From Pseudothauera rhizosphaerae (GTDB lineage Bacteria > Pseudomonadota > Gammaproteobacteria > Burkholderiales > Rhodocyclaceae): a DNA stretch of 64,000 bases. Made by a program: the position numbers and the translations under genes. The notes below the pieces were generated by a model. The model was not told where the DNA came from. It ran no database searches and saw only the letters and a program-made list of their open reading frames with translations. Of the stretch, positions 32,502 to 41,046 are shown in pieces; within the stretch, counting starts at the first letter, position 1, and each line of letters opens with the position of its first letter. Location of the stretch: assembly GCF_004801305.1 (NCBI RefSeq), contig NZ_SSOD01000007.1, positions 124,001-188,000 of the forward strand, written 5' to 3'.

Positions 32502-32918
32502 TCAGAAAGGCTTGAGCACCGCCAGGAAGACCACCGCCACCAGCACCAGCACCGGCACCTCGTTGAACACCCGGTACCATACGTGGCTCTTCCTGCTGCG
32601 CCCGGCGGCGAAGTCGCGCAGCAGCTTGCCGCAGTACAGGTGGTAGCCCACCAGGCCGAGCACCAGGGTGGTCTTGGCGTGCAGCCAGCCGCCGCCGTAC
32701 ACCTCCGGGTAGCCGAACCACAGCCACAGCCCCAGCCCCACCGCCAGGATGCCCAGCGGGGTCATGAAACGGTAGAGCTTGTGCTCCATCAGCTTCAAGC
32801 GCTCGATGGTGGCCGCGTCCTCGACCATCGCATGATTGACGAAGATGCGCGGCAGGTAGAACAGGCCGGCGAACCAGGACACGACGAAGACGATGTGCAG
32901 GGCTTTGATCACGAGCAT
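32502..32918 (-). CDS. hemJ: Protoporphyrinogen IX oxidase HemJ
   Basis: Membrane oxidase of the penultimate haem step. The 138-residue protein has four predicted helices and the conserved H8 (IKALHIVF), R24 and K82 (GGGWLHAKTTL) that are important in HemJ. It was formerly annotated as CopD-like UPF0093. Its start overlaps the end of the epimerase-like gene upstream by ten bases, and its end converges on mobA. Confidence 0.92.
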   Translation of the reverse strand: MLVIKALHIVFVVSWFAGLFYLPRIFVNHAMVEDAATIERLKLMEHKLYRFMTPLGILAVGLGLWLWFGYPEVYGGGWLHAKTTLVLGLVGYHLYCGKLLRDFAAGRSRKSHVWYRVFNEVPVLVLVAVVFLAVLKPF

Positions 32919-33799
32919 GGGGAAGGATTCTCCTGGGCAATGGCGATGGGAAGGCTGTGCAGCACGGTCGGATAGCGCAGGCCCACGCGCAGTTCCCGGC
33001 GCAGGCGCGCGTTCGACAGCACGCGGGATTCGGACATGAAGGACAGCGCCATGGGCGACAGGCGGGCGGCGATCTCGGCGCGGGTGAGGCGCGGCGGGCG
33101 GGGGAGGCCGAAGCGGTCCGCGAGCAGATCGAAGTAGGCCCCCATCGTCATGTGCGTATCATCGGCGGCATTGTAGGCACGCCCGCCGCGTCCGCGGAAC
33201 AGGGCGGCACAGGCCAGGCGTGCCAGGTCGTCGGCGTGGATGTGGTTGGTATGCACGTCCTCTTCGGCCCGCAGCACCGGATCGCCGCGCCGCAGGCGTT
33301 CGAGGGGCAGGCGGTCGGCCGCGTAGATGCCGGGCGCGCGCAGCAGGCTTACCCGCAACGCGTGGCGCCGGCCGAAGGCGCGCAGGCGGTCCTCCGCATC
33401 CACCCGGCGCCGTGCCCGCGCGGTCTGCGGACGGCGCGGGCGGGTTTCGTCCACGGCCTGCCCGCCGCAATCGCCGTACACCCCGGTCGTACTGATGTAT
33501 ACGATGCACCGTGGTAGACTCCCGCGCGCCAGCGCAGCCAGCAGGTGCGCCGTGCGCGGGTCGGTGGTGCCGGTCGCGGGCGGGGGGGCGAAGTGCAGCA
33601 CGGCATCGGCCACGCCGGCCAGCCGCGCGAGGCTGCGGCGGTCGTCGAGATCGCCGCGCACGGGCACGGCGCCCAGCGCCCGCAACGCCGGACCGGCCGC
33701 GGCGTCGCGCACCAGCGCCAGTACCCGGAAGCGGCGCGCCAGCCAGGGAATCGCGCGCCGTGCGACGTCGCCGCTGCCGACGATCAGTATCCTCTTCAT
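32909..33799 (-). CDS. NAD(P)-binding epimerase/dehydratase-like protein
   Basis: A 296-residue extended SDR-fold protein. The N-terminal dinucleotide loop is ILIVGSGDVARRAIPWLA, followed by DAVLHFAPP and YISTTGVYGD; the usual YxxxK pair is not evident (the region reads ARARRRVDAED), so it may be an atypical or non-catalytic SDR (YeeZ-like group). The substrate is unknown. It overlaps hemJ downstream. Its start lies only 24 bases from the divergent reductase gene. Confidence 0.78.
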   Translation of the reverse strand: MKRILIVGSGDVARRAIPWLARRFRVLALVRDAAAGPALRALGAVPVRGDLDDRRSLARLAGVADAVLHFAPPPATGTTDPRTAHLLAALARGSLPRCIVYISTTGVYGDCGGQAVDETRPRRPQTARARRRVDAEDRLRAFGRRHALRVSLLRAPGIYAADRLPLERLRRGDPVLRAEEDVHTNHIHADDLARLACAALFRGRGGRAYNAADDTHMTMGAYFDLLADRFGLPRPPRLTRAEIAARLSPMALSFMSESRVLSNARLRRELRVGLRYPTVLHSLPIAIAQENPSPCS

Positions 33800-33823
33800 A
33801 GCGCCAGGATTATCTCACGCAAG

Positions 33824-34840
33824 ATGCCCTTCCAGATTTCACTCCAGCCCGGCGGCCAGCAGTTCCAGGCCGAACCCGACCAGACCATCCTGGACGCGGC
33901 CCTGGCGGCCGGCCTGCTGCTGCCTTACGGCTGCCGCGACGGGGCCTGCGGCGCGTGCAAGGGCAAGGTGATCGCGGGCACGGTGGATCACGGCGGCGTG
34001 TCGGGCGCGGTGCTCACCGACGAGGAGCGGGCCGCCGGCCTGGCCCTGTTCTGCCGCGCCACGGCGCGCTCGGACCTGGTGCTGGAAGCGCGCACCGTGG
34101 CGCGCACCGGCGACATCCCGGTCAAGAAGCTGCCCTGCCGCGTGCAGAAGCTCGAACGCGCGGCCGACGACGTGATGATCCTGGACCTCAAACTGCCGGC
34201 CACGGAGCAGTTCCAGTTCCACGCCGGGCAGTACATCGACATCCTGCTCGCCGACGGTGGACGGCGCAGTTTCTCCATTGCCAACGCGCCCCACGACGCC
34301 GGCCACCTGGAACTGCACGTGCGCCGGGTACCCGGCGGCCGCTTCACCAGCCACGTGTTCGAGGGCATGAAGGAACGCGACATCCTGCGCTTGGAAGGCC
34401 CGCTCGGCAGCTTCTTCCTGCGCGAGGACAGCGGCAAGCCCATCGTGCTGGTGGCCGGCGGCACCGGCTTCGCGCCGATCAAGAGCATCGTGGAGCACGC
34501 CCGGCACATCGGCCTCGACCGCCCGATGACGCTGTACTGGGGGTCGCGCGACCGTGCCGGCCTGTACATGGACGGACTCGCTCGCGGGTGGGAGGGGGCT
34601 CTTCCCGGCTTCCGCTATATTCCGGTACTCTCCGACCCGTCGGCCGATGACGCATGGGACGGACGTCGCGGATTGGTGCATCGTGCGGTCATGGAGGATC
34701 TGCCGGACCTGTCCGGGCACGAAGTCTATGCCTGCGGCGCGCCGGCGATGATCACGGCCGCCCGCATGGATTTCGCATCGGGCTGCGGCCTGCCGGACAC
34801 GGCTTTCTTCGCCGATTCCTTCACCTATTCGAACAAGTGA
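33824..34840 (+). CDS. 2Fe-2S/FAD/NAD(P)H oxidoreductase (CDP-6-deoxyglucoseen reductase-like)
   Basis: A 338-residue electron-transfer flavoprotein. Residues 1-90 are a plant-type 2Fe-2S ferredoxin with CRDGACGACKG and a distant fourth Cys (LFCRA). Then come an FAD domain (RRSFSIANAPHD) and an NAD(P)H domain (IVLVAGGTGFAPIKSIVEHA, YACGAP). Such proteins serve as reductases for oxygenases or in deoxysugar synthesis; none of those partners is adjacent. The HDOD gene follows after four bases, so the two are probably cotranscribed. Confidence 0.88.
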   Translation: MPFQISLQPGGQQFQAEPDQTILDAALAAGLLLPYGCRDGACGACKGKVIAGTVDHGGVSGAVLTDEERAAGLALFCRATARSDLVLEARTVARTGDIPVKKLPCRVQKLERAADDVMILDLKLPATEQFQFHAGQYIDILLADGGRRSFSIANAPHDAGHLELHVRRVPGGRFTSHVFEGMKERDILRLEGPLGSFFLREDSGKPIVLVAGGTGFAPIKSIVEHARHIGLDRPMTLYWGSRDRAGLYMDGLARGWEGALPGFRYIPVLSDPSADDAWDGRRGLVHRAVMEDLPDLSGHEVYACGAPAMITAARMDFASGCGLPDTAFFADSFTYSNK

Positions 34841-34844
34841 TGCC

Positions 34845-35981
34845 ATGAGCCAGACCGTCATCCTCACCCGCGAGCCCGTCGTCAACAAGAGCCGCGCGAT
34901 CACCGCCAACCGGCTCATCGCCCACGGCCAGAACATGGGGGCCGTGGTGGACGCGCTCAACGGCCTGGCCGACGTGTGGCCGACGCGCCACACGGTGTTC
35001 GTGTGCCTGGGGCGGCTCGTGCCCACGCCCGACCTGATGAACTGGTCGGCGCCGCAGAACGCCATGGTGGAGATTCCGGTGCAGGCCCTGAACCACCCCC
35101 AGACCCAGGCCCTGCTGCCGCAGTTGCGCGAAGCCGGCATCAGCACCTGCCTGAGCTGGTACGCACCGGGCACCGCGCTGCCGGCCGGCGCCGAATGGCG
35201 CTTCGTGCTGCTCGATGCACGCAAGAACGCCGCACCCAACGGGGCGCCGGGGCTCAGCCTGGCCTGGGGCCTGGCGGATCTGCCCGCCTTCCAGAAGGCG
35301 GTGGCCGCGGGCTACGACGGCGCCTCGGGCTGGTTCTTCCTGCACGGCAACCCGCCGCCCAAGGATCTGACGCCGGGGCACGCCCAGATCGTGCGGCTGC
35401 TCAACCTGGTGCGCAACAACGGCGACATCAAGGAGATCGAGGCGGTGCTCAAGCAGGACGTGGCCCTGTCCTACAAGCTGCTGCGCTACATCAACTCGGC
35501 CGGCTTCGGCCTGATGTGCGAGATCCAGTCCTTCCGCCACGCGGTCAGCATCCTGGGCTACGACAAGCTCAACAAGTGGCTGTCGCTGCTGCTGGTCACC
35601 GCCAGCCGCGACCCCAGCGCACCGGCCATGATGCAGACCGCGATCACGCGCGGCCGCTTCATGGAGGAAGCGGGGGCGCAATTCTTCGACAAATCCGAAC
35701 GGGACAACCTGTTCATCACCGGCGCCTTCTCGCTGCTCAACCTGCTGCTCGGCACCTCCATGCAGGCGGTGCTCGACGAGATGAACCTGCCGCCCAACGT
35801 CACCGAGGCCCTGCTCTACGAGCAGGGCGAATTCGCCCCCTTCCTCAAGCTCGCCCGGCTGTGCGAGAGCTTCGACGGCAGTGCGCTGGCCAAGGCCGCC
35901 GACGAACTGCAGCTCGCACCCGACGTGCTCAACCGCGCCCACCTGACCGCCCTCGCCTTCGCCGACGACCTGCAGGCCTGA
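34845..35981 (+). CDS. Degenerate EAL-HDOD signalling protein
   Basis: A 378-residue protein of the YuxH-like group. The N-terminal ~175 residues resemble an EAL phosphodiesterase fold, beginning VILTREPVVNKSRAITANRL, but the E-A-L and metal-binding residues are absent, so c-di-GMP hydrolysis is unlikely. The C-terminal half is an HDOD domain (about 185-375), with LNLVRNNGDIKEIEAVLKQDVALSYKLLRYIN as the family start, shown here only as recognition blocks. HDOD proteins often control signalling or gene expression. It starts four bases after the reductase. Confidence 0.82.
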   Translation: MSQTVILTREPVVNKSRAITANRLIAHGQNMGAVVDALNGLADVWPTRHTVFVCLGRLVPTPDLMNWSAPQNAMVEIPVQALNHPQTQALLPQLREAGISTCLSWYAPGTALPAGAEWRFVLLDARKNAAPNGAPGLSLAWGLADLPAFQKAVAAGYDGASGWFFLHGNPPPKDLTPGHAQIVRLLNLVRNNGDIKEIEAVLKQDVALSYKLLRYINSAGFGLMCEIQSFRHAVSILGYDKLNKWLSLLLVTASRDPSAPAMMQTAITRGRFMEEAGAQFFDKSERDNLFITGAFSLLNLLLGTSMQAVLDEMNLPPNVTEALLYEQGEFAPFLKLARLCESFDGSALAKAADELQLAPDVLNRAHLTALAFADDLQA

Positions 35982-35983
35982 GA

Positions 35984-36018
35984 GATCCTCCGTCGCAGTC
36001 CGGCGACAGCGGAGGATC
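35984..36018 (+). other. Bulged stem-loop after the EAL-HDOD gene
   Basis: GATCCTCCG (35984-35992) pairs with CGGAGGATC (36010-36018), and TCGC pairs with GCGA inside it, leaving a CAG bulge and a six-base loop. It begins three bases after the stop codon. Without a T run it may be a structured mRNA end or a protein-binding RNA element. The rest of the 207-base gap to the next gene shows only a possible TAATAT -10 at 36171-36176. Confidence 0.4.
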
Positions 36019-36188
36019 GGACCGGACGGCAGGCCCTCTTCCGCGCCGGGCTTGCACCCTGTGTGTTGGGCCTATGCCTTTCGTCGCATGGGCGGCGCGC
36101 ACCGGAGCGCGACGAAACCAGCCACTGCGCCTCTGCGCATTCGGTCACGTCGCCGCTGGCCGATTGTCGCTAATATCCGGGCAGTCCA

Positions 36189-38210
36189 ATGAATGCCCGG
36201 AGCCAGCCCCTGATGGCCCACCCGGTGCCGAGCGCACTCCGCCCTGCTGCGCCCAGCCTCGTGCCGAGCGGCAGCGAGGCTCTCCTCGGCCTGCTCGGCA
36301 ATCCCGAACCCGACTGGCGCGCCGCCGCCGAACTCACCCTGCGCGACGTCACCCTGTGCTTCCCGCTGCTGGCGGCGCGGCCGCTCGCGGGCGGGGAGGC
36401 GTGCGACCTCGGGGCGCTGCTCGAACAGCGTCTGCGCCAGGCGGGCACCGGACTGCTGCGGGCCTGGATGCTCCACCTCGCCCAGGCCGACCCGCCCCGT
36501 GCCGCCGCCCCTGCGGCCGAACTCGCGCAGACGGCCTTGCTGGCCGCCGAATGCGCCCGCCACATCGCCCAGGAAAATCGCTATCCGCGCCCGGACGAAG
36601 CCTATCTGGCCGGCATGTGGCTGGCGCTCGGCCAGGCGGTCGGCGGCGCGAGCGGGCAGTCGGCCAATGCGGCCGCAGCCGCGCTCGCCACGCAGTGCGG
36701 CCTGCCCTCACCGATCGTGGACGCCCTGCTCATCGAACAGGCCCTCGAAGAATACGTTGCCGCCGCCCATCCCCTCGCCCGCATCCTGTGGTCGGCGGTG
36801 CGGCTCGCCCGCGAGCCGGACAGCGCATCCGACCCCCGCTTCGCGGCGATGGCGCACCTGGCGCCGGAGGTGCTCGCCAGCCTGCGCACCGACATCGCGT
36901 TTCTCGCCGGCGGACGGGCCGCTCCGCCCGCCACGGCGGGCGCGCCGTGGCCCCGTGGCCCGCTGCCGCCCCAGTTGCAGGCGGCCGCGCTGGGCGGCCT
37001 TCTGCAAGGGGCCTTCGCCGGACTGGATGCCGAGGCCGTGCACGCACGCCTCGCCCTCGGCTGCCGCCTGCTCGCCGGCGTCGAGCAACCGCTGATCCTC
37101 AGCCCCGCCGACGACCGCCCGCTGGCCCTGCTCTCGCCCGGCGCTCCGCGGCTTGCCGAGTGGGTGGACGAACTGGCCCTGCGCAGCGACGACGAATCGA
37201 GCATGATCGCGCTGGCGCTGCGCAGCACCACACCGACCACCGTGGTACTCGGCGAGAGCCTCGACACGCGCAGCGCGGCCGACTGGCAGATCGGACGCTG
37301 GCTCGGCGCGGGCGTTATCGCCTGCGTGCCCCTCGCACTGGCGCACACCCGCACGGTGGCGGTGTTCGGCTGCCCCCTGGAGCATCTGCCGCTGGACGCC
37401 GCGGCGTCGACGCTTGGCATCCTGATCGCCCGCGCCGCCGACCGTCTGCTCGACGAACAGGCGCGCGTCCGCGCCCAGACCGAGCAGGCCGAGCAGTTCC
37501 AGGCGCGCTACCGCCAGCACGCGCGCACGCTGGTGCACGAGGCCAACAATCCGCTGACCGTGATCCGCAGCTACGTGGGCCTGCTGGAGCAGCGCCACGC
37601 CGACGACACCTCGCTGCGCGACAAGCTCGCCCTCATCGACGAGGAACTGGCCCGCGTCGGCGACCTGCTCGGCCGCTTCAGCGCGCTGCCCGGCCAGGAC
37701 GCGCCGGAGGAACCGCATTGCGCCGTCGGCAGCCTGCTCGACGAACTGCGCGCCCTGTGCGCCGAACCGCTGTTCGAGAGCCACGGCATCCGTTTCGAAC
37801 TGCGCAAGCCGGCCGTCCTGCCACGGGTCGCCATGCCGGCTTCCGCCCTCAGGCAGGTGCTGCTCAACCTGCTGCGCAATGCCTCCGAGGCGCTCTCGCC
37901 GGGCACCCGCTTCGCGCTCGCCGTGCCCGGCCAGCTCGTGGTCGACGGACGCCCCTGCCTGGAGATCCGGCTGATCGACAACGGCCCCGGTCTGTCGGCC
38001 GAACGCATGGCCGACCTGTTCGCCAGCGGCAGTACTACCAAAGGCGGGGAACACCAGGGTATCGGGCTTTCAATCGTTCGCGATATTCTTTTGCGTTGGA
38101 ACGCGACCGTCGTCTGCCGCAGCCAGGCGGGCAGCGGAACCGGCTTCCAGTTGTTCGTTCCGGTACAAATTCCTCCGGATCGATTAAATGCCTTTAAGAA
38201 TTTGGTTTAA
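36189..38210 (+). CDS. HDOD-domain sensor histidine kinase
   Basis: A 673-residue cytoplasmic protein without clear membrane helices. The N-terminal ~200 residues form an HDOD domain, residues about 250-430 resemble a GAF-like sensory region, and the C-terminus is a kinase: H-box His H450 in LVHEANNPLTVIRSYVGLL, N-box VLLNLLRNASEAL, NGPGLS and GIGLSIVRDIL. The last codons are unusually AT-rich. It is followed by a REC-PAS-GGDEF-EAL protein, which is the obvious phosphorylation partner. HDOD fused directly to a kinase is uncommon but known. Confidence 0.85.
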   Translation: MNARSQPLMAHPVPSALRPAAPSLVPSGSEALLGLLGNPEPDWRAAAELTLRDVTLCFPLLAARPLAGGEACDLGALLEQRLRQAGTGLLRAWMLHLAQADPPRAAAPAAELAQTALLAAECARHIAQENRYPRPDEAYLAGMWLALGQAVGGASGQSANAAAAALATQCGLPSPIVDALLIEQALEEYVAAAHPLARILWSAVRLAREPDSASDPRFAAMAHLAPEVLASLRTDIAFLAGGRAAPPATAGAPWPRGPLPPQLQAAALGGLLQGAFAGLDAEAVHARLALGCRLLAGVEQPLILSPADDRPLALLSPGAPRLAEWVDELALRSDDESSMIALALRSTTPTTVVLGESLDTRSAADWQIGRWLGAGVIACVPLALAHTRTVAVFGCPLEHLPLDAAASTLGILIARAADRLLDEQARVRAQTEQAEQFQARYRQHARTLVHEANNPLTVIRSYVGLLEQRHADDTSLRDKLALIDEELARVGDLLGRFSALPGQDAPEEPHCAVGSLLDELRALCAEPLFESHGIRFELRKPAVLPRVAMPASALRQVLLNLLRNASEALSPGTRFALAVPGQLVVDGRPCLEIRLIDNGPGLSAERMADLFASGSTTKGGEHQGIGLSIVRDILLRWNATVVCRSQAGSGTGFQLFVPVQIPPDRLNAFKNLV

Positions 38211-38355
38211 ACTTTTGGCACAGAAGAGATTTCCGTCGGATTCGATGACGAAACGCTTTCCCGCCCGCATCCGGTGGCGGTAAGCTCCGCGGCACGAAAA
38301 CGGAAAGCTCGTGCAGTACCGGAACGCTCCATAACCAGCGCAGCTCAGGGGGGTC

Positions 38356-40521
38356 ATGGTTATCCCGGCAGAGCAACCCTTCTTCGATCAGGCGGCAACG
38401 CGCGACGGCGCCGAACTGCCGTGCCGCATCCTGATCGTCGATGACGACGTGGCGCTGCGCCGCACGCTTCCGCACGTGCTCGCGCACTCGACGCGCCAGT
38501 TCGACGAATGCGGTACGGTCGCCGAAGCCCTCGAGAAGCTCGCCGGCACCGAATACGATTTGATCCTGCTCGACTACCGCCTGCCCGACGGCAACGGCCT
38601 CGCGGTGCTCGACTGGCTGGCCGAGCGGCACCGGGGCGAGGCGGTGATCATGATCAGCGGCGAGGACGCCATCGATGCCGCCATCGGCGCCCTGCGCGGC
38701 GGCGCCGACGATTTCGTGCGCAAGCCCTACCATGTGGTGCAGATGCAGCGCACGGTGCAGAACGTGCTGCACCGTACCGCCCTCGAACGTGCCAACCGCG
38801 CCATGAGCCAGCGCCTGCACGCCTCCGAGCGCCTGCACCGCTACCTCGTGGAAAGTTCGCCCGACCTCATCTTCACCCTCGATGCGGACGGCTGCTTCAG
38901 CTACCTGAATCCGCGCGTGGAAGCCCTGCTCGGCTTCGAGCGCGCCCAGTTGCTCAGGCGCCCCTTCATCCTGCTGGTGATGCCCGAGGACCAGGACCGC
39001 ATCCAGGCCCTGCTGCAGGTCTGCCGCAGCGGCCGTTCGGACGGCTTCAGCATCGAACTGCGCCTGCGCCGCAACCGCCACATGGTGGAGGACGGCGAGA
39101 ACACCTACGTCACCGTCGCCCTCAACGGCCTGCCCATGGCCGGCGAGGACGGCGCAGGCATCGGTCTCTACGGCGTCGCCCGCGACATCTCCGAGCGCAA
39201 GCGGGCCGAGGAGATCATCACCTTCCAGGCCTACCACGACCAGCTCACCCGCCTGCCCAACCGCGTGCTGTTCCGCGACCGCCTCGAACTCGCGGTTGCC
39301 CAGGCGCAGCGGCGCGCCGGCATGCTGGCGGTGATGTTCATCGACGTGGACCGCTTCAAGCTCGTCAACGACACCTACGGGCACGCCGCGGGCGACGCCC
39401 TGCTGCGCAATCTGGCCGAACGGCTGGGCACCGCCCTGCGCCGCGGCGACACGCTGGCCCGGCTCGGCGGGGACGAGTTCACCATCCTGTTGCCGGACAT
39501 CTCCCGTCCCGAGGACGCCGAGACCACCGCGCGCAAGATACTCGACACGCTGGCCCGGCCGTTCGCGCTGCCGTCAGGCGAATTCCGCGCCACGGTCAGC
39601 ATCGGCATCTCCATCTATCCGCGCGACGGCAAGAGCGCGGAAGAGCTGACCAAGCATGCCGACGTGGCCATGTACAAGGTCAAGCGCTCCGGCAAGAACG
39701 GCTTCCGCTTCTTCGACGCCGAACTCAACGCCCACCACCGCCAGCGCGTGACGCTGGAGAACGACCTGCACAACGCCCTCGAACGCAACGAGTTCGAGCT
39801 CCACTTCCAGCCCCAGGTCAGCATGGCCGGGCGGCGGGTGGTCGGCATGGAGGCGCTGCTGCGCTGGAACCATCCCCTGCACGGGCAGATCGGGCCTGCA
39901 GTGTTCATCCCGGTCGCCGAGGAGATGGGCCTGATCACCGACATCAGCCGCTGGGTGCTGGACCGCTCCTGCCACCAGTTGATGCGCTGGCGCGACTCCG
40001 GACACACGGACCTGCGCATGTCCCTCAACCTGTCGCCGCACGATTTCGACCGCGCCGGCATGGTGGACGAGGTGCTCGCCGCGGTCACCCGCTACCGCAT
40101 CCCGCCCGCCCAGCTCGAACTCGAGATCACCGAGAGCATGATGATGCAGGACACGGAGGGCGCGGCCGCCAAGGTGCAGGCCCTGCGCGCGGCCGGCCTG
40201 GGGGTGGCGATCGACGACTTCGGCACCGGCTATTCCTCCCTGTCCTACCTGCAGAAATTCCCGGTGAGCTGCCTGAAGATAGACCGCAGCTTCGTGGGCG
40301 ACCTGTACGGCCCCGCCCTCAACCCCATCATCTCCGCGATCACCGGCATCGCGCGCGGCTTCGGCCTGCAACTGATCGCCGAAGGCGTGGAACAGGCCGA
40401 GCAGGTCGAAGTGCTGCGCTCCCTCGGCTGCGACGTCATGCAGGGCTACTACTTCGCCCATCCGGCCGCCGCGGCCGAGGCCGAGCAGTGGCTGCAGACC
40501 CCGCCCTGCGCCATGCTCTGA
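38356..40521 (+). CDS. Response regulator with PAS, GGDEF and EAL domains
   Basis: A 721-residue c-di-GMP enzyme controlled by phosphorylation. Receiver domain at about 22-140 (ILIVDDDVA, LILLDYRLPDG, VRKPYHV), PAS at about 155-280, GGDEF at about 290-455 with the motif at 371-375 and an inhibitory RxxD site (RRGD) five residues before it, and EAL at about 465-715 with E499-A-L and DDFGTGYSSLSYL. Both catalytic signatures are intact, so it could make and degrade c-di-GMP. AGGGGGG precedes the ATG. It follows the HDOD-kinase gene and ends in a strong terminator. Confidence 0.93.
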   Translation: MVIPAEQPFFDQAATRDGAELPCRILIVDDDVALRRTLPHVLAHSTRQFDECGTVAEALEKLAGTEYDLILLDYRLPDGNGLAVLDWLAERHRGEAVIMISGEDAIDAAIGALRGGADDFVRKPYHVVQMQRTVQNVLHRTALERANRAMSQRLHASERLHRYLVESSPDLIFTLDADGCFSYLNPRVEALLGFERAQLLRRPFILLVMPEDQDRIQALLQVCRSGRSDGFSIELRLRRNRHMVEDGENTYVTVALNGLPMAGEDGAGIGLYGVARDISERKRAEEIITFQAYHDQLTRLPNRVLFRDRLELAVAQAQRRAGMLAVMFIDVDRFKLVNDTYGHAAGDALLRNLAERLGTALRRGDTLARLGGDEFTILLPDISRPEDAETTARKILDTLARPFALPSGEFRATVSIGISIYPRDGKSAEELTKHADVAMYKVKRSGKNGFRFFDAELNAHHRQRVTLENDLHNALERNEFELHFQPQVSMAGRRVVGMEALLRWNHPLHGQIGPAVFIPVAEEMGLITDISRWVLDRSCHQLMRWRDSGHTDLRMSLNLSPHDFDRAGMVDEVLAAVTRYRIPPAQLELEITESMMMQDTEGAAAKVQALRAAGLGVAIDDFGTGYSSLSYLQKFPVSCLKIDRSFVGDLYGPALNPIISAITGIARGFGLQLIAEGVEQAEQVEVLRSLGCDVMQGYYFAHPAAAAEAEQWLQTPPCAML

Positions 40522-40540
40522 ACGGCACGCGGCGAGGAAT

Positions 40541-40580
40541 GCCAACAAAAAACCAGCCCGCGGGCTGGTTTCTTGTTGGT
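40541..40580. terminator. Bidirectional rho-independent terminator
   Basis: AACCAGCCCG-CGGGCTGGTT (40551-40570) is a perfect palindrome. It is flanked by CCAACAA and TTGTTGG, so 40 bases are almost fully self-complementary, with A-rich and T-rich sides on the two strands. It lies between the convergent EAL and cytochrome genes. Confidence 0.85.
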
Positions 40581-40593
40581 GCGTGTCAGGCGC

Positions 40594-40902
40594 TTACTTC
40601 TGGGTCAGCACCCACTCGGCCAGCGTCTTGGCATCGGCCTCGCTGACCTGCGGGTTGGGGGGCATCGGGATCTGGCCCCAAACGCCCACGCCGCCCTTCT
40701 GGATCTTGGTCGCCAGCGTGGCGGCTGCACCGGCCTGGCCGGCGTACTTGGCGGCCACGTCCTTGTAGGCCGGACCGACCAGCTTCTTGTCCACCGTATG
40801 ACAGGCCAGGCAGTTCTTGGCCTTGGCCAGATCGGCGGAGGCGAAGGCCGGAGCGGCCGAAAGCAGGCCGGCAGCAACCGCGGCAGCAACGAAAAGCTTC
40901 AT
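40594..40902 (-). CDS. Class I cytochrome c (c551/c552-like)
   Basis: A 102-residue periplasmic monohaem electron carrier. A signal peptide covers about residues 1-22 (AAPAFA). The haem attaches to C31 and C34 with H35 (CLACH), and M80 in QIPMPPNP is the axial sixth ligand. The mature size of about 80 residues fits cytochrome c551, which delivers electrons to terminal oxidases or nitrite reductase. It stands alone between the terminator and queF. Confidence 0.94.
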
Positions 40903-41046
40903 GGTTTCTTCCTCATGGTGGTGGTAGAACGTGGGCGGATACTAAACCAGTCGGCCCACCCTTGCCTACCTGTTCAACAAATGTTGCAGCACTCCGACCG
41001 CCTCGCGACGCCTTGATTCCCAAGGGAAATCGCATCGCCCGGCGTC

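Follow-up and report, generated by a model that had tools for sequence, protein, structure and literature searches.

The four genes examined here make up two modules that lie end to end on one strand. Module 1 consists of an FNR-type reductase (FNR) and an EAL-HDOD protein, and module 2 of an HDOD histidine kinase and a REC-PAS-GGDEF-EAL response regulator, which are a conserved pair with an unusual HDOD input. We propose, with a probability of about 0.7, that module 2 is a two-component system in which the HDOD kinase sets c-di-GMP turnover, likely through phosphodiesterase activity, and that module 1 need not share this pathway. The genes are found in a stretch of 64,000 nucleotides (the window) from the 4.6-Mb genome of Pseudothauera rhizosphaerae.

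Gene organization and the reductase/EAL-HDOD module

The four plus-strand open reading frames of the initial annotation were all located, with the motifs that it had assigned to them, and the Pfam matches of the first gene confirm a 2Fe-2S/FAD reductase (Table 1). They are flanked by a divergent SDR gene on one side and a convergent cytochrome c gene on the other. At positions 32909-33824, the SDR gene and FNR start in opposite directions from codons just 24 bases from each other, which leaves scant space for separate promoters. A sigma-70 promoter scan of 33500-41000 found none (0.4 expected), and scans for Rfam families and tRNA genes gave zero matches in the window. FNR and the EAL-HDOD gene are separated by 4 bp, and the kinase and regulator genes by 145 bp. 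The terminator with which the cluster was said to end is borne out as a hairpin by folding: the stretch 40536-40585, which contains the hairpin, folds at -27 kcal/mol (z -5.0), and the convergent cytochrome c gene lies beyond it. A simple terminator pattern scan returned two sites versus 3.3 in shuffled sequences; thus, the scan alone is no evidence for a terminator. Sitting between convergent genes, the hairpin may serve both.

Table 1. Coordinates of the four genes and the downstream hairpin in the window
Feature	Positions	Strand	Basis
FNR-type 2Fe-2S/FAD/NAD reductase (module 1)	33824-34840	+	Pfam Fer2, FAD_binding_6, NAD_binding_1
Degenerate EAL (~residues 1-166) + HDOD protein (module 1)	34845-35981	+	Pfam HDOD; EAL fold by model
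HDOD-GAF-HisKA-HATPase histidine kinase (module 2)	36189-38210	+	Pfam, orthologue alignment, predicted model
REC-PAS-GGDEF-EAL response regulator (module 2)	38356-40521	+	Pfam Response_reg, PAS, GGDEF, EAL
Terminator-like hairpin 3' of regulator, facing convergent cytochrome c gene	40550-40571	+	Folding and pattern scan

The EAL-HDOD protein of the window matches Pfam HDOD at residues 188-247 (42.6 bits; cut-off 22.9), and Pfam EAL matched none of its 31 orthologues. Its predicted model has a mean pLDDT of 77, falling below 65 across much of residues 161-260. Residues 1-166 of the model nevertheless match EAL structures (Z 11.8-14.1 over 157-169 residues, rmsd 2.8-3.7, 50 matches listed), which bears out the earlier description of a catalytically degenerate EAL domain despite the lack of Pfam matches. 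The position of the EAL motif, placed by eye with the aid of a paralogue, reads A-N-R, and R23 is invariant in 31/31 orthologues. As aligned, the EAL motif is lost in the window protein, with R23 standing where the catalytic Glu would be expected. When the PDB was searched with this sequence, the matches were to chains of HDOD type and all weak (best E 0.01). Profile-profile comparison was not usable, either with the regulator (probability 0.2) or with the kinase (probability 3.1, though both HDOD regions aligned); the EAL and HDOD assignments therefore rest on Pfam and the predicted model.

FNR and EAL-HDOD are a family-wide gene pair. FNR accompanies EAL-HDOD in all 50 loci examined, at a spacing of -4 to +36 bp in the 30 loci measured. 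We searched 297 genomes of the family, which includes Thauera, Zoogloea and Rhodocyclus, the window's own genome among them; 268 have an EAL-HDOD match at E<=1e-15, a threshold that admits paralogues. Among 228 other genomes of the class, no full-length EAL-HDOD was found at E<=1e-40, and the five with matches gave only partial ones starting at residue 126 or later.

The kinase-regulator pair

Across the same 297 genomes, 97 have a kinase match (E<=1e-30) and 103 a regulator match (E<=1e-140). Both occur in 95 genomes, and in all 95 they are adjacent on one strand (Fisher's test for co-occurrence, p ~3e-65, a value that ignores kinship). In two genomes, G164 and G203, the kinase occurs without the regulator, and eight have a regulator match without a kinase match, six of which may hold a sub-threshold kinase. 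We call the pair embedded when it lies beside FNR and EAL-HDOD, and stand-alone when it occurs without them. Of 29 embedded loci, 24 have 35-85 bp between the kinase and regulator genes and five have 133-252 bp; in three of nine stand-alone pairs the two genes overlap by 4 bp. With the top few candidates per genome scored, 101 of the 103 regulator genomes have a single match; there seems to be one copy of the pair per genome, embedded or stand-alone.

The window kinase matches Pfam HisKA and HATPase_c. The HDOD domain fused to it according to the initial annotation holds at the level of the family, with matches in 28 of 38 orthologues (E<=0.01, best 8.6e-51); the window copy itself is below the cut-off (19.3 vs 22.9 bits). 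At the same E-value, HATPase_c is matched in 38/38 orthologues and HisKA in 33/38. GAF_2 is matched in 5/38, adding a GAF-like domain that was absent from the first account; taken together with the HDOD matches, this gives the architecture HDOD-GAF-HisKA-HATPase. Pfam PAS has no match in the kinase, where HDOD and GAF are found instead. H450, E451, N560, N564, D597, G599, G601, G624 and G626 are invariant in all 38 orthologues, so that by its H, N, G1 and G2 boxes, together with HisKA and HATPase_c, the protein is predicted to be an orthodox histidine kinase. Its predicted model has a mean pLDDT of 88.5, and the fold comparison spans mainly residues 421-662. Cys643 in the catalytic domain is likewise invariant in 38/38; a regex check over 23 distant loci obtained a reading in only four, with Cys in three of them.

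Across species of the window's genus, the kinase is far more divergent than its neighbour genes. Against L039, L040 and L041, identity is 61, 52 and 52% in the HDOD domain of the kinase and 75, 76 and 66% in its HATPase domain; in the domains of EAL-HDOD, compared with L039, L040 and L043, it is 82-89%. The faster change of the kinase is consistent with relaxed or changing selection on a sensor.

The regulator was described at the outset as having intact motifs, and D73, GGDEF and EAL are indeed all intact in the window protein. In the alignment of 34 regulators, receiver residues D29, D73 and K123 are kept in every row and D30 in 32; with its acidic pocket, phospho-acceptor Asp and Lys, the receiver is predicted to be phosphorylatable. 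What we take to be the EAL catalytic residues are present in 34/34 rows (E499, N558, E593, D620, D621, K641, D643, E676, E679, Q696), with E590 in 33/34, and EAL phosphodiesterase activity is predicted from them. GGDEF is intact in 30/34 rows, including the window's, and altered in L059, L060, L075 and L107, all of which keep the EAL residues. The RxxD inhibitory-site motif occurs in 33/34 rows. The best NCBIfam match is the phosphodiesterase DibA, far under its cut-off (459.7 vs 980 bits). Because EAL is nearly invariant and GGDEF is altered in four rows, we predict a kinase-controlled phosphodiesterase.

In two loci, L107 and L108, the regulator lies directly 3' of EAL-HDOD without a kinase, which makes them a natural test of the regulator alone. 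Theirs are the sole rows in which D30 is changed (to G and S), with D73 and K123 kept. The loss of D30 where the kinase is missing would agree with a dedicated pair; this is suggestive only, as the two rows belong to one lineage and thus count as one event at most.

Linkage of the two modules across genomes

Forty kinase loci were hand-picked over the range of kinase matches. All four genes occur in order in 29 of them; thus, the gene order recurs in other genomes and is not limited to this strain. In ten loci the pair is stand-alone, and one, L061, lacks the regulator. We chose 20 further loci in which no kinase lies near the best EAL-HDOD match. All 20 have FNR immediately upstream of EAL-HDOD, and 17, including L099 from the window's genus, have neither kinase nor regulator at the site. 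The other three are L107 and L108, and L103, whose contig ends 143 bases past EAL-HDOD. A stand-alone pair is present elsewhere in seven of these 20 genomes.

The junction between EAL-HDOD and the kinase is also interrupted. Among 30 embedded loci, this point holds the gene of a Cache-domain MCP in four (L039:8204-9706 and L045:5703-7202, also L040 and L046) and, in one, a DDE transposase encoded on the other strand. The MCP may be an extra partner or a chance neighbour. Over 25 loci of the stand-alone pair, we found no third conserved partner: only the kinase and regulator recur broadly, and the other shared open reading frames reflect synteny in a few loci or overlap with the genes of the pair. 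Genes of pilT/pilU type lie several genes upstream, and many loci have them upstream as well; no pilus role is drawn from them, since they are separated from the cluster by genes on both strands and the neighbourhood is inherited as a unit.

The pair extends beyond the family. The kinase profile matches in 14 of 273 other genomes of the class (E<=1e-45), and in 13 of these a regulator homologue reaching into GGDEF is found downstream within a 1.5-kb flank; the fourteenth, L213, shows only a receiver match there. From 80 named distant loci, many of which match only the catalytic part of the kinase, 27 were analysed. A GGDEF-EAL regulator match lies downstream in 21 of 24 of these (L119-L141 and L143), among which are Competibacter, Contendobacter and a Desulfuromonadales MAG. 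L129 and L135 are cut by the contig end, and L132 (Thermodesulfobacteriota) has a kinase of this type followed by a receiver-PAS match and another kinase-like match, with no GGDEF-EAL. In a midpoint-rooted tree of 49 regulators, the 30 embedded regulators group with the two kinase-less ones in a single clade (support 100/99), and the stand-alone group has support of 94/88. L107 and L108 are nested within the embedded clade on a long branch. From this topology, the kinase-regulator cassette probably landed beside EAL-HDOD once, and the kinase loss in L107 and L108 is probably secondary.

The modules thus separate between genomes, and a single four-gene system, as first proposed, is dropped as the default. 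From the HDOD-gated c-di-GMP pathway of the initial annotation, what stands is a kinase/effector pair with HDOD on the kinase; membership of the reductase and the second HDOD protein in the same pathway is not supported, and we found no evidence of redox input to the kinase. Functional ties between the modules would also fit, as most embedded genomes keep the four genes together.

Proposed mechanism, alternatives and known systems

We propose that the kinase, with its HDOD and GAF-like inputs, autophosphorylates at H450 and that the phosphate would pass to D73 of the adjacent regulator. The phosphorylated receiver would then set how fast c-di-GMP is turned over by GGDEF-EAL, which most likely acts as a phosphodiesterase, GGDEF being mainly regulatory. 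Module 1 would be the site where the cassette came to lie, with no need for a shared pathway.

Several alternatives have to be weighed against this mechanism. All four genes may instead form one HDOD-gated, perhaps redox-fed c-di-GMP pathway, in which EAL-HDOD would serve the kinase as an adaptor or as a receptor of c-di-GMP. The common strand and the order kept in most of the hand-picked loci agree with such a pathway, as does the location of kinase and EAL-HDOD at one locus in 56 of the 68 kinase genomes with EAL-HDOD among the matches listed (150 genomes listed). However, either module occurs without the other beside it, foreign genes sit at the junction in 5/30 loci and the two modules differ in distribution range, and we regard it as improbable. 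It is equally hard to favour a kinase that is branched or serves mainly another receiver, with the regulator as a phosphate sink or fed by several kinases; the persistence of the regulator in L107 and L108 would agree with it, and so would RavR, described as a phosphate sink for RavS in PMC6707612, whereas the adjacency in every genome that has both genes, together with their joint absence, favours a dedicated pair.

The alternative of a net cyclase keeps the rest of the mechanism and has GGDEF switched on by phosphorylation, so that the regulator would make c-di-GMP. A cyclase role is possible because GGDEF is intact in most rows, the window's included, and the widespread RxxD motif also speaks for it; the rows that alter GGDEF while keeping the EAL residues, and the DibA match, sub-threshold as it is, argue the other way and leave synthesis unlikely. 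Returning to the kinase-controlled phosphodiesterase, a speculative extension, which we consider doubtful, is that the kinase HDOD, perhaps with GAF, binds c-di-GMP. The pair would then be a self-contained homeostat, with the kinase reading c-di-GMP and setting the regulator that breaks or makes it. If true, HDOD, on whose function there is no agreement, would have a ligand-gated role in a kinase.

The domain order of the regulator is common to FimX. FimX is degenerate in its receiver, GGDEF and EAL, and we know of no kinase paired with it. A degenerate regulator of this type was rejected for the window protein, given the intact D73, GGDEF and EAL.

The EAL-HDOD protein can be compared with ZpdA and CdgJ of Vibrio cholerae, described as EAL-HDOD proteins in PMC12607878, with ZpdA an active phosphodiesterase. 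An N-terminal EAL fold and a C-terminal HDOD domain are also found in the window protein; unlike ZpdA, it appears to be without an EAL motif, and it sits with a reductase gene. It does not belong to the active ZpdA/CdgJ type, since the EAL motif and catalytic residues are lacking by Pfam and by eye. SadB of Pseudomonas fluorescens is an HDOD protein of a c-di-GMP pathway that binds c-di-GMP (PMC6543031); an HDOD protein in a c-di-GMP pathway is thus common to both, but SadB has no kinase, unlike the window pair.

Our literature search, which covered only a minority of the subscription journals, recognised no description of a REC-PAS-GGDEF-EAL regulator with an HDOD kinase as its partner. In the two-component system ArrS-ArrR of Aeromonas veronii, phosphorylation controls a regulator that is a c-di-GMP phosphodiesterase (PMC11841396); ArrS has PBP2 and PAS inputs, an HPT domain and no HDOD, whereas the window kinase has HDOD-GAF. 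The nearest characterised analogue that we found is RavS-RavR of Xanthomonas campestris, in which a histidine kinase is paired with a c-di-GMP-degrading response regulator of the GGDEF-EAL kind; c-di-GMP binds the CA domain of RavS (PMC6707612). The pairing of a kinase with a GGDEF-EAL regulator is shared, and the inputs differ, with PAS in RavS versus HDOD-GAF in the window kinase. The RavR receiver appears to follow GGDEF-EAL, judged from the number of its receiver Asp, whereas the receiver comes first in the window regulator. Two-component control of c-di-GMP is already known, and HDOD as the kinase input is the unusual part. The role of the HDOD domain is described as unsettled in PMC6543031 and PMC11004494; with a conserved HDOD-GAF kinase next to a c-di-GMP enzyme, the output of HDOD input becomes measurable, and relatives without the kinase, or without both genes of the pair, are natural controls.
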